The position numbers and the translations under genes were made by a program. Below, piece by piece: positions 17,798 to 20,044 of a stretch of 64,000 nucleotides of DNA; the stretch's first letter is position 1; each line of letters begins with the position of its first letter. Under the pieces are notes generated by a model. That model saw only the letters and a program-made list of their open reading frames with translations, did no database searches and was not told the DNA's origin. The stretch lies in the NCBI RefSeq assembly GCF_900186535.1, contig NZ_FYDE01000005.1, forward strand, positions 1,216,895 to 1,280,894, in the 5' to 3' direction. The stretch is from Marasmitruncus massiliensis. Lineage in GTDB: Bacteria > Bacillota > Clostridia > Oscillospirales > Ruminococcaceae.

Positions 17798-18103
17798 TCA
17801 GCGGAGCAGGCCTGCGTCAATACAGAGCTTTGCGGCAAGTTGGAGAAACTGTTTTGCCGCTTTCAGCCGCCGCCACACAGTGGAAACGCTTACCTGCAAT
17901 TGCCGCGCCGCCTGTTCGATCGTCAGCCCTTCCTGATAATATAAAACCACAGCTTCCCTCTGTCCGGTGGGCAGTGCTTTGATCGCTGCCGAAAGAAACC
18001 GGCGGTAAGCGTCAAGCTCCCTGCTGTTGTCCGCTTTTGCGGAATCCGCTGAAATCCGCTCAAAATCGGAAAGGGAAAAGGCCCTGCGCTTTTTTTGAAA
18101 CAT
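17798..18103 (-). CDS. Small sigma-70 region 4-like HTH protein
   Basis: 101 aa. The C-terminal half reads IKALPTGQREAVVLYYQEGLTIEQAARQLQVSVSTVWRRLKAAK (in two parts, about residues 40-85), a clear sigma region 4 / LuxR-like helix-turn-helix. There is no region 2, so it is not a complete sigma factor. Similar small proteins control late or transfer genes in phages and conjugative elements (for example Orf7 of Tn916); that comparison is from memory. ATG 18103 follows AGGAGG at ideal spacing. It lies 12 bp after the preceding small gene and shares its SOS/XRE-controlled promoter. Its target promoters are unknown, and no cognate element is visible. Confidence 0.72.
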   Translation of the reverse strand: MFQKKRRAFSLSDFERISADSAKADNSRELDAYRRFLSAAIKALPTGQREAVVLYYQEGLTIEQAARQLQVSVSTVWRRLKAAKQFLQLAAKLCIDAGLLR

Positions 18104-18115
18104 GGATGCCTCCTG

Positions 18116-18322
18116 TCAGTCATTATAGTAATTCCGCAGATATCCCATTACTGTGCGCACATCGAGCAGTTCGGCATAGAGCAGATCGATGCGTTTCTGC
18201 ATCGCAAACGCTTTTTCACCGCGCGCCGTCGGCAGTTCCGCCCGCAGCGCCGCAATCCGGTCCTGGAGCCGATCGGCAGCTGCGCGGTATTCGTCAGAAA
18301 GCTGTTTTAAATTCAATTTCAT
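18116..18322 (-). CDS. Short helical protein of unknown function
   Basis: About 68 aa, charged and helical (RAAADRLQDRIAALRAELPTARGEKAFAMQKRIDLLYAEL), probably a coiled coil; I do not recognise the family. The start needs care. Frames beginning at 18367 or 18352 lie upstream of, or at, the predicted transcription start (about 18359). AGGAGGG abuts ATG 18322 with no spacer, while the TTG at 18316 has the ideal six-base spacing. The true start may therefore be that TTG (66 aa). It is the first gene of the leftward unit of the XRE/ImmA switch, with the sigma-like gene 12 bp downstream. Confidence 0.6.
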   Translation of the reverse strand: MKLNLKQLSDEYRAAADRLQDRIAALRAELPTARGEKAFAMQKRIDLLYAELLDVRTVMGYLRNYYND

Positions 18323-18333
18323 CCCTCCTGTAT

Positions 18334-18344
18334 CACAAATTGTG
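18334..18344. promoter_or_regulatory. Operator-like palindrome O1 (CACAAATTGTG)
   Basis: Perfect 11-bp palindrome in the leader of the leftward operon, about 15-25 bases after the predicted start. It shares the CAC...GTG(T) half-sites with O2 and O3 and is a candidate binding site for the divergent XRE repressor. Confidence 0.5.
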
Positions 18345-18346
18345 TA

Positions 18347-18358
18347 GAACATTTGTTC
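18347..18358. promoter_or_regulatory. Candidate LexA (SOS) box
   Basis: GAACATTTGTTC, extended to a 16-bp inverted repeat TAGAAC-ATTT-GTTCTA. It matches the Gram-positive SOS core GAAC-N4-GTTC. It lies exactly at the predicted transcription start of the leftward operon, where LexA binding would block initiation or early elongation. Confidence 0.6.
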
Positions 18359-18365
18359 TAATTTC

Positions 18366-18394
18366 AAAGTAGCACACGATTCGTGTTATGTCAA
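18366..18394 (-). promoter_or_regulatory. Leftward promoter with operator O2 in its spacer
   Basis: On the minus strand TTGACA (18389-18394), 17 bp, TACTTT (18366-18371) with a TGC extended -10. The spacer contains the perfect 13-bp palindrome ACACGATTCGTGT (18374-18386), so a bound repressor would exclude RNA polymerase. Confidence 0.65.
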
Positions 18395-18426
18395 CCGAAA
18401 GAATCGAAAAAAATAAAATTTAATGG

Positions 18427-18455
18427 TTGCATTTCTACACGTTGTGTGATAATAT
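18427..18455 (+). promoter_or_regulatory. Rightward promoter of the XRE/ImmA pair with operator O3 in its spacer
   Basis: TTGCAT (18427-18432), 17 bp, TAATAT (18450-18455). The spacer contains ACAC-GTT-GTGT (18437-18447), the same half-sites as O2, consistent with autorepression of the XRE gene. Confidence 0.6.
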
Positions 18456-18476
18456 CGAACCAGTGAGGTGATCGCA

Positions 18477-18884
18477 ATGATAGGAAACAGGCTGAAAGCG
18501 CTGCGCAAAAAGCGCAATTTGACGCAGCAGGAGCTGGGAACTGCTTTGGGGGTATCTGCCAGCACCATCGGCATGTATGAACAGGGCAGGCGGGAACCGG
18601 ATCACAAAACACTGACCGCCCTCTGCCGTCTGTTTGATGTTTCAAGCGACTATTTCCTGTTGGGCGGCCCCGCGCCCGGCGATCTCCCGCCAAATGCAGA
18701 ACTTCATGAGGTAATTGATGAGTTCCGCAGCCGTCTGATGAATCAGGAAGGGCTGATGTTTCAAGGTGTGCCGCTTTCTGATGAGGATATCGCGCAGGTG
18801 ATCAATGCGATTGAGATTGGTACGATGGTGGCAATGAATAAGCTGCGCCGCAAACCTCCGGACGGCGGGAATGGTGAAAACTGA
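18477..18884 (+). CDS. XRE-family repressor (ImmR-like)
   Basis: 135 aa. The N-terminal HTH (residues 1-60) reads IGNRLKALRKKRNLTQQELGTALGVSASTIGMYEQGRREPD, a classic Cro/C1 fold. The C-terminal 70 residues probably mediate dimerisation and protease recognition. ATG 18477 is chosen because GAGGTG lies six bases upstream; a GTG nine bases earlier falls within that site. The ImmA/IrrE protease gene follows after 12 bp, the arrangement of ImmR/ImmA in ICEBs1, where the protease cleaves the repressor after DNA damage. The candidate operators O1-O3 lie in the divergent promoter region. Confidence 0.88.
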   Translation: MIGNRLKALRKKRNLTQQELGTALGVSASTIGMYEQGRREPDHKTLTALCRLFDVSSDYFLLGGPAPGDLPPNAELHEVIDEFRSRLMNQEGLMFQGVPLSDEDIAQVINAIEIGTMVAMNKLRRKPPDGGNGEN

Positions 18885-18896
18885 CAGGAGGATTTC

Positions 18897-19337
18897 ATGG
18901 AAGCCATTAAAAATACCGCGGTTGGGCTTGCCGCACGTTTTGGCACTTCCGATCCGTTTGAGATCTGCGAAGGGCTTGATGTTTGTGTACTGCGGGCTGC
19001 ACTTCCGCAAACTATCCGGGGATTTTACACCTTTATCATGGGGATTCAGATGATCTATCTGAATGCCGGACTCTCTGACGGGCAGGAACGAAGGGCGGTG
19101 TGTGCCCATGAGCTTGGGCATGCGGTGCTGCATTCCGGTCATAACTTTATGTTTTTGAAGGAGAACACCGGTTTTATAGCCGCCCGGTTTGAGCGGGAAG
19201 CCGATTTATTCGCCGGCTATCTGCTGCTGGACGAGCAGACGGTTTACGACTGCCGCTGCAATGGTTGGACGGCAGGCCAGATTGCACACATGACTGCTTT
19301 GCCCGAGCGGGTAGTGGACTACTGTTTCAAAAATTGA
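18897..19337 (+). CDS. ImmA/IrrE-family metallopeptidase
   Basis: 146 aa cytosolic zinc protease. The active-site motif HELGHAVLH (about residues 74-82) supplies two zinc ligands and the catalytic Glu. The downstream FEREADLFAGYLLL helix provides the third ligand and is diagnostic of the ImmA/IrrE family. Relatives cleave their partner XRE repressor. The adjacent XRE gene is the expected substrate by position. ATG 18897 follows ACAGGAGGATTTC. A strong terminator ends the unit. Confidence 0.92.
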   Translation: MEAIKNTAVGLAARFGTSDPFEICEGLDVCVLRAALPQTIRGFYTFIMGIQMIYLNAGLSDGQERRAVCAHELGHAVLHSGHNFMFLKENTGFIAARFEREADLFAGYLLLDEQTVYDCRCNGWTAGQIAHMTALPERVVDYCFKN

Positions 19338-19413: not shown

Positions 19414-19444
19414 TATCTCATTAAGTGATAAATATATCACTATC
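19400..19444. repeat. Perfect 18-bp inverted repeat (operator or RNA hairpin)
   Basis: The left arm 19400-19417 (GATAGTGATATATTTATC) is exactly complementary to the right arm 19427-19444, with a nine-base spacer. The right half itself contains GTGATA-N4-TATCAC. It overlaps the -10 and predicted start of the following operon and ends just before the ribosome site. It is most simply a multi-site operator for the small XRE regulator encoded in the same operon. Confidence 0.7.
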
Positions 19445-19463
19445 TAAGGGGTGCAAATTGAAG

Positions 19464-19829
19464 ATGAAACATACAGTGAAAAATCGGAGAATGTGGATGG
19501 GGTTTCTGGGACTTTTTGGATTACAGGGATTCTCCTATTTCTGGACGGGGGAGGCAACCGATCTGTGCGCATTTGCGTGGTTTGCCTATTTTTCCTATTT
19601 CTGGCTGGCAAGGCTTCATGTGGAACTGCCGGACGAACGGTACCGGGAGGATGTCAAGACGGCAAAAGCGTTCGCGTTTCAGATCGCCTCATTTGAACTG
19701 TTTGTGTTGTTCCTGCTGGTGTTGATATTGCCGGAAAGTAGCACGCTCCTGACACTTGCCGTTTCAATTTGTGTTGCTGTGCTGATTCTTTCCTATGCGG
19801 CTAAACTATATCAGCTGGAGGAAAAATAA
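19464..19829 (+). CDS. Small membrane protein, DUF3796-like
   Basis: 121 aa with hydrophobic segments at about residues 9-45 and 70-115. The opening motif [16 protein letters not shown] and the aromatic-rich [27 protein letters not shown] section look like the DUF3796 family, which is often encoded beside a small XRE regulator; that assignment is from memory. Its function is unknown. AAGGGG lies six bases before a TTG (19458) and ten before ATG 19464, so the true start could be two codons earlier. The XRE gene follows after five bases. Confidence 0.65.
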
Positions 19830-19834
19830 AAGCC

Positions 19835-20044
19835 ATGGAGGAATTTATCTGCAATTTAAAAAAATACCGGCAGCTGGCGGAAATGACACAGGAGGAATTG
19901 GCGTCCAGAGTTCATGTCCGCAGGGAAACCATTATCCGGCTGGAAGCCGGAAAATATAACCCATCCTTAAAACTGGCAATCGATATTTCCCGCGCGGTAG
20001 GGACGCCGATTGAGGAGCTGTTCATTTTTCCAAATTGCGACTGA
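19835..20044 (+). CDS. Small XRE-type HTH regulator
   Basis: 69 aa, essentially a bare helix-turn-helix: [59 protein letters not shown]. This matches the YgzD/Cro-like group of minimal regulators often paired with small membrane proteins. It follows the DUF3796-like gene by five bases. Its probable operator is the 18-bp inverted repeat upstream of the pair. The signal it responds to is unknown; the membrane partner may modulate it, but this is inference. Confidence 0.85.

Follow-up and report, generated by a model that had tools for sequence, protein, structure and literature searches.

A putative DNA-damage switch with two candidate locks beside a helical-hairpin and sigma-region-4 gene pair in Marasmitruncus massiliensis and its relatives

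The window analyzed here, a stretch of 64,000 nucleotides from Marasmitruncus massiliensis, contains a divergent four-gene unit in which an XRE repressor and an M78 protease (ImmA) are encoded rightward, and a small helical-hairpin protein and a sigma-region-4 protein (sig4) are encoded leftward. We consider that this locus is probably a resident chromosomal DNA-damage switch, with two locks that control the hairpin-sig4 pair. Judged from sequence comparison, the apparent double lock of the window is one of several arrangements, in which the operon is faced by either repressor alone, by the two together, or by none. The regulation is of familiar kinds in a new variant, and the gene pair that it drives is undescribed; the literature searched, at the level of titles and abstract openings, contained no description of a hairpin-sig4 operon among the matches listed.

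Layout of the divergent locus

The four-gene unit lies in a genome of 3.76 Mb and is flanked by ksgA/rex on one side and by a downstream DUF3796/XRE pair on the other. The rightward genes are xre (18477..18884, plus strand), encoding a 135-residue, ImmR-like repressor of the Cro/CI type (HTH_3, 3.7e-17), and immA (18897..19337, plus strand), encoding a 146-residue metalloprotease of the M78/ImmA-IrrE type that contains an HELGH motif (Peptidase_M78, 2e-13). The first gene of the leftward operon (18116..18322, minus strand) encodes the hairpin or 'coil', a 68-residue antiparallel helical hairpin of no named family, and is preceded by a ribosome-binding site, AGGAGGG, read off the sequence at 18323..18329 (minus strand). 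The second gene, sig4 (17798..18103, minus strand), encodes 101 residues that comprise sigma region 4 only, without region 2. The DUF3796 protein (5.5e-27) and the 69-residue XRE-type regulator that follows it, at 19425-20044 of the window, form a separate small unit adjoining the switch.

The predicted leftward promoter, TTGACA-N17-TACTTT (18366..18394, minus strand; TTGACA at 18394-18389 and TACTTT at 18371-18366), has equivalents in relatives. The predicted rightward promoter is TTGCAT-N17-TAATAT (18427..18455, plus strand; TTGCAT at 18427-18432 and TAATAT at 18450-18455), and its equivalents in relatives resemble TTTACA/TTGACA-N17-TAATAT. A preliminary, sequence-only reading of the locus had described these promoters as face-to-face; their orientation is in fact divergent, back to back. 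Neither window promoter was listed by a consensus promoter scan, each having one hexamer that matches at only 3/6 positions, so both assignments rest on position and on the stronger hexamers of relatives.

Direct reading of both 17-bp spacers bore out the claim that each holds an ACAC...GTGT palindrome. The candidate operator ACACGATTCGTGT (18374..18386) is found within the leftward spacer and is kept in homologous loci, and the 11-bp candidate operator ACACGTTGTGT (18437..18447) is found within the rightward spacer. The LexA (SOS) box GAACATTTGTTC is located at 18347..18358, approximately at +1 of the predicted leftward promoter, and a third operator-like palindrome, CACAAATTGTG (18334..18344), is located between this box and the start of the hairpin gene; both were positioned as the preliminary reading had them.

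Bare motifs by themselves mean little here. The pattern ACACN5GTGT was found once in the window against 0.30 expected and 19 times in the genome against 43 for the reversed control, and the core GAACN4GTTC was found twice in the window against 0.92 expected and 58 times in the genome against 65 for the reversed control. What places the box and the palindromes above chance is the identity of the former with the recA box and the conservation of both. Read as its reverse complement, GAACATTTGTTC is identical to the box that precedes the gene that we take, from its sequence, to be recA of the same genome. The pattern RAACAWWTGTTY had 11 matches in the 3.76-Mb genome against 7 for the reversed control, only a mild excess. 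Six of the 11 sites are found at recA, lexA, a Y-family polymerase (two), a truncated polymerase copy (by eye), and a radical-SAM/DUF4130 pair; one is the hairpin locus, one is at locus L029, and three have no visible SOS-like gene. The lexA and polymerase boxes of the window genome resemble that of the hairpin locus.

Two of these sites merit separate description. At L029 (3008-3019; G000:C2:241307) a second exact GAACATTTGTTC lies within the spacer of a TTGACA-N17-TACAAT promoter that precedes small open reading frames; those of 121 and 77 residues look by eye like a phage holin region and had no match in Pfam. At L030 (3071-3082; G000:C2:275170) a LexA-type box precedes a reading frame that appears by eye to be a truncated version of the L027 Y-family polymerase and that likewise had no Pfam match. 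A simple pattern search of the 260 bp preceding recA found no LexA-type box in 17 wider-set genomes, seven of which (G303, G305, G306, G307, G309, G310, and G311) carry a full LexA, so the recA box type is confirmed in the window genome only.

The encoded proteins

The hairpin protein is predicted to form a two-helix hairpin (pLDDT 92.9). At E 0.01 the window protein was assigned to no family of Pfam or PHROG, with scattered single matches among 58 members of the family, and it had no PDB fold match at E 0.001. A tblastn search at E 0.01 of 50,697 phage and 72,556 plasmid records, which detects only fairly close relatives, gave no match. These sequence and fold searches gave no support for the hairpin being a sigma region 2, a phage protein, or an example of a known fold. 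The sig4 protein matched Sigma70_r4_2 of Pfam (1.8e-15) and a PHROG sigma-factor family (1.6e-12). Its predicted fold is that of sigma region 4 with a loose N-terminus (pLDDT 85.4), and its best matches are region-4 domains of sigma factors, none of them reaching E 0.001 by fold. With region 4 present and region 2 absent, it differs from a sigma factor of the ECF type or of group 5. The profile models were built from 58 hairpin and 53 sig4 sequences, a part of those available.

Two known systems are similar in their parts. SigO-RsoA of B. subtilis is a two-subunit sigma factor, in which a region-4 protein is encoded with a small partner, and sig4 is likewise a region-4 protein encoded with a small partner. 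The hairpin differs in having no match to sigma region 2, by sequence or by fold, among the matches listed. UviA of C. perfringens is under SOS control. It is also the product of a sigma-like gene, described in the available text of one report as a plasmid-borne alternative sigma factor (PMC4885068), whereas sig4 comprises region 4 only and has a hairpin partner.

The same features bear on the possibility that the hairpin and sig4 form an anti-sigma factor or an inhibitor of RNA polymerase, by which transcription is shut off once damage has occurred. A lone region 4 could compete for the beta-flap, sigma factors can be bound by helical hairpins, and the hairpin has a weak, sub-threshold match to RsiG (E 0.046). 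On the other hand, sig4 keeps a conserved region 4 with a helix-turn-helix, which a pure inhibitor would not need, and we regard an inhibitory role as unlikely, at perhaps one chance in a few.

The rightward pair has the composition of an ImmR-ImmA module, with an XRE repressor adjoining an M78 protease that has an HEXXH motif. The best solved relative of the XRE protein is ImmR of ICEBs1 (6.6e-12), and the only solved relative of the protease among the matches listed at E 0.01 is CapP. PADLOC identified the XRE protein as capH (2e-8) and the protease as capP (5.2e-10); of the divergent genes, the hairpin had no PADLOC match and sig4 only weak ones (mad1, CARF). In an alignment of the six XRE proteins of the genus, F95, which lies in an LMF-x-G motif, is invariant, as is HELGH in all six ImmA proteins.

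Repressors, palindromes, and LexA-type boxes among relatives

The hairpin protein was found in 8 of the 11 genus genomes searched, the window genome included. Six of these (the window genome G000, G004, G005, G007, G008, and G009) carry XRE-ImmA, and in all six each spacer keeps a palindrome, that of the leftward spacer in G008 being degenerate in one half. Rightward-spacer palindromes related to ACACGTTGTGT are found in all five XRE-bearing relatives, and the CACAAATTGTG palindrome is found at the same position in G005 and G007. These conserved palindromes are candidate XRE sites. A LexA-type box is located at the leftward start in five of the six XRE-bearing genomes, the relatives being G005, G007, G008, and G009; G004 has XRE-ImmA and the palindromes without the box. 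Thus sites for both locks appear in the window and in four of the five XRE-bearing relatives. In G001 and G002 the XRE, ImmA, palindromes, and box are all absent from stretches of approximately 10 kb and hairpin-sig4 is kept, a joint absence that we count in favor of the switch reading. The sequence-only reading had proposed that the module and its order of boxes be sought in other genomes, and would have been contradicted by a lack of conservation of the palindromes. In homologous loci both the palindromes and the SOS box at the leftward start are found in equivalent positions, and these sites, like the genes, reappear across genera.

We extended the comparison by use of the hairpin protein alone as a query. 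A match was found in 65 of 297 family genomes, four of them in the genus, and wider regions were taken from 39 of the other 61 (40 places). These were picked by hand, roughly by score, with G250, G093, G289, G137, and G174 among those skipped and some weaker ones taken. The resulting 48 loci (the window, 7 from the genus, and 40 from the family) have sig4 beside the hairpin gene in 43 cases, a divergent XRE in 21, and a recognized ImmA in 16. A LexA-type box was found within 200 bp upstream at 27 of the 48 loci, including one GC-rich box (G130) that is possibly due to chance, compared to a mean of 0.61 and a maximum of 3 in 200 dinucleotide shuffles. In the 200 bp preceding the hairpin gene, a CACN5GTG palindrome was found at 15 of the 21 loci with a divergent XRE and at none of the 27 without (p 5e-8); a shuffle control over the 48 loci gave a mean of 1.19 and a maximum of 6.

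Presence of LexA was scored by a match to TIGR00498 above the curated cut-off, which was obtained for 35 of 47 genomes; those scored as lacking LexA have no match above it, and G020, G124, and G045 among them have partial matches. Some genomes are incomplete (G153, 64 percent; G286, 68 percent; G182, 88 percent; G234, 89 percent) and may be missing genes. By this measure the box was present at 27 of 36 loci from LexA-bearing genomes and at none of 12 from genomes without LexA (p 4e-6). The XRE had the opposite distribution, being present at 11 of 36 and at 10 of 12, respectively (p 0.002). The samples count related genomes; when genera were used as units, the box was found in 15 of 20 with LexA and 0 of 7 without (p 9e-4), and the XRE in 5 of 20 and 6 of 7 (p 0.009). 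These counts indicate that the predicted LexA boxes track LexA and that the candidate palindromes track XRE. Within LexA-bearing loci the box was independent of the XRE (9 of 11 with XRE, 18 of 25 without, p 0.69).

With the box confined, in the hairpin set, to loci from LexA-bearing genomes and XRE showing the opposite trend, LexA and XRE-ImmA appear to substitute for each other in part as locks on a single chromosomal operon. This is a trend, not a rule. A strict rule under which XRE-ImmA would be found only where LexA has been lost was rejected, given a full LexA in 32 of the 50 genomes selected by XRE (see below). Most loci with any lock carry a single one; box and XRE occur together at only 9 of the 48 loci, all in LexA-bearing genomes, and 9 of the 48 have neither. 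The preliminary reading had the leftward genes released only when both repressors are removed. Two repressors of damage type remain plausible for the window, but a double lock is not general, as evidenced by G004, G001, G002, and the nine loci with neither.

Several loci have individual features. Six genomes of 0.7–0.9 Mb (L067, L070, L072, L073, L074, and L078 in G168, G234, G096, G286, G182, and G077), in which no LexA was detected, keep the hairpin, sig4, and XRE, with ImmA recognized in five; four of the six genomes are less than 95 percent complete. Retention of these genes in such small genomes suggests a core role. Loci L062 and L064 (G271 and G039) have a divergent XRE and a LexA-type box with no recognized ImmA, and perhaps represent a lock that lost its protease. 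At L061 (G076), holin-like and amidase-like reading frames, recognized by eye, lie 0.8–1.9 kb past sig4 on the other strand, possibly as a lysis cassette. The neighbors past hairpin-sig4 vary and look chromosomal among the matches listed, and we accordingly rejected the downstream genes as members of the operon. In a class-wide sample the hairpin was matched in 12 of 391 genomes, eight of them in the same order (three in the family of the window and five in family f5). All five loci of f5 have sig4, and a LexA-type box is found at three of them. Two of the four matches from other orders were inspected, and one of these two has sig4.

An alignment of the XRE against named genomes provided a second survey, in which we used the best 80 of 288 relatives, 14 of them shared with the hairpin set as judged from record lengths and positions. 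Among these best 80 of 288 loci, the hairpin and sig4 are both divergent and adjacent in 71 and at least one of them in 77; the remaining three all start no more than 141 bases from the end of a contig. Of 72 spacers between XRE and hairpin, 70 contain CACN5GTG (shuffle mean 2.7, maximum 9), and 61 contain two or more copies (shuffle mean 0.0, maximum 1). In 59 of these 72 spacers a copy starts 20–45 bp ahead of the hairpin match, and in 67 a copy lies further upstream. LexA-type boxes were found in 15 of the 72 spacers by a fixed pattern (shuffle mean 1.5, maximum 5), and in 16 by a second definition requiring at least 9 of 12 matching positions. From 77 of the loci we picked 50 genomes by hand. 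The box by the second definition was present at 10 of 30 LexA-bearing loci with a scored spacer and at 2 of 18 without LexA, so many XRE-guarded operons skip LexA though it is present. ImmA was not recognized within 400 bp of the XRE at 11 of the 80 loci, and at these release by damage is not assured. Distances among XRE, sig4, and hairpin sequences correlate (r 0.71–0.75; 0 of 999 permutations). This is as expected if the three descended jointly, and shared species history alone would give the same result.

These surveys also bear on whether only one lock of the window works, either a LexA site with XRE-ImmA merely autoregulating, or XRE-ImmA with an incidental LexA box. The predominance of single-locked loci elsewhere and the ability of G004 to manage without a LexA box are consistent with such a reading. 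Both kinds of site, however, lie at promoter-critical positions, and both are present again in four further genomes of Anaerotruncus as well as in Candidatus Anaerotruncus excrementipullorum (L136) and Acetanaerobacterium elongatum (L188). We would give a single working lock about one chance in five.

Relation to known switches and a proposed mechanism

The XRE-ImmA pair resembles ImmR-ImmA of ICEBs1 (and of TnSmu1) in that an XRE gene is followed by an M78 protease gene and in the divergent promoters with repressor sites, the latter being putative here. ImmR of ICEBs1 is cut at F95-M96 according to the available text of one study, and the window repressor has a similar length and an F at 95 (PMC8960796); this likeness is one of position only, not of a residue-by-residue alignment. 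The window locus differs from ICEBs1 in that the divergent genes are hairpin-sig4 rather than transfer genes, that a LexA box is added, and that a tyrosine integrase is lacking. The claim of the sequence-only reading that no integrase or transfer gene is present stands for tyrosine integrases, the one class that was searched for, none of the 11 PF00589 matches of the genome falling in the window. A pair of the CapH-CapP type regulates a CBASS operon, as stated in the part of the source available (PMC10233336), and the pair in the window, despite its PADLOC and structural matches, faces the hairpin and sig4 instead.

The box itself is of the GAACN4GTTY type described for the LexA regulon of C. 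difficile in the available text of PMC4234289. The hairpin locus has the sequence characteristics of a LexA regulon member: a box of the genome's own type at the promoter, identical to the recA box, and kept in LexA-bearing genomes of the hairpin set, though in only a third of those of the XRE set. The available portions of two papers on LexA SOS regulons (PMC4234289, PMC3998124) make no mention of an operon that combines sigma region 4 with a hairpin.

Mobile elements typically carry XRE-ImmA pairs and small sigma-like activators, and the locus might be what is left of an immunity region from a prophage or ICE, in which XRE-ImmA is an old lysogeny switch, hairpin-sig4 an old activator, and the box a leftover, all now useless. 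The PHROG sigma-factor match of sig4 and the relationship of the XRE to ICEBs1 ImmR are in keeping with such an origin. The absence of a tyrosine integrase from the window and of a phage or plasmid match for the hairpin argue against it, as does the presence of rex near the locus in the window and in five of seven genus relatives. The recurrence of genes, palindromes, and boxes across genera, including in genomes of 0.7–0.9 Mb, would also be odd for a remnant, and we judge this origin improbable. The preliminary suggestion that the circuit is 'domesticated' was not upheld, given the lack of phage or plasmid matches for the hairpin; old vertical inheritance fits equally well.

Proteases of this kind are associated with repressor cleavage triggered by single-stranded DNA in PprI-DdrO and CapP-CapH, as reported in the available text of PMC10904395. 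The same text describes PprI(IrrE)-DdrO of Deinococcus as a chromosomal pair of XRE and M78 protease tied to DNA damage, similar to the window pair, with PprI differing in its GAF-like domain; no extra domain was recognized in the 146-residue window protease. That the XRE is, like DdrO, the master repressor of a wide regulon, with ImmA acting as PprI and hairpin-sig4 as one target of many, is very improbable: it is in keeping with the shared protein families, chromosomal location, and damage logic, and with an excess of ACACN5GTGT over the reversed control in G004 (10 versus 5) and G192 (3 versus 0), the locus itself contributing two of the copies in G004 and one of those in G192, but the motif is below the control in 7 of 9 genomes, the window genome among them, and no CACN4-5GTG was found within 260 bp upstream of recA in the 17 wider-set genomes (the window genome not included; the start is poorly placed in some). 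We accordingly rejected the XRE as a global repair repressor, and it appears to be a local one.

We return to the reading of the locus as a resident two-lock switch. In the undamaged cell, XRE would occupy the operators in both spacers and repress hairpin-sig4 as well as itself, and LexA would occupy a second operator at the leftward start. Upon damage, RecA filaments would form on single-stranded DNA and lead to self-cleavage of LexA, and the ImmA-type protease, if activated as in its studied relatives, would cut XRE. With both repressors gone the hairpin-sig4 operon would be expressed, and the two proteins would then act on RNA polymerase, such that a second tier of genes is switched on. From the layout and its recurrence we infer that the repressors bind, that ImmA cleaves, that release follows an AND logic, that sig4 and the hairpin act as described, and, at most tentatively, that damage induces the leftward operon.

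No target genes of sig4 or the hairpin were found. We considered competence, in the manner of a ComX-like regulon, and rejected it: the pilus component T2SSF (PF00482) is found in 171 of 297 family genomes and is listed as missing in hairpin-bearing genomes such as G002, G009, G020, G042, and G050. By gene content, the competence pilus is not a general target of sig4, as its occurrence does not consistently follow that of the operon.

A broader proposal, which we put forward tentatively and at somewhat less than even odds, is that the hairpin and sig4 are a new two-part transcription factor that launches a second, activator-driven wave of the damage response in Anaerotruncus and its relatives, with LexA and ImmR-ImmA as interchangeable sensors and ImmR-ImmA able to take over after loss of LexA. 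In different genera the same operon appears to be under one or the other of two unrelated damage-sensing repressors, and in some genomes under both, such that the replacement of one DNA-damage sensor by another becomes directly testable. The locus suggests that a switch of the ImmR-ImmA type may serve the host chromosome rather than a mobile element. Its output, a sigma region-4 protein and a hairpin of an unnamed family, gives a hint that the SOS response of gut bacteria may include a branch driven by an activator.
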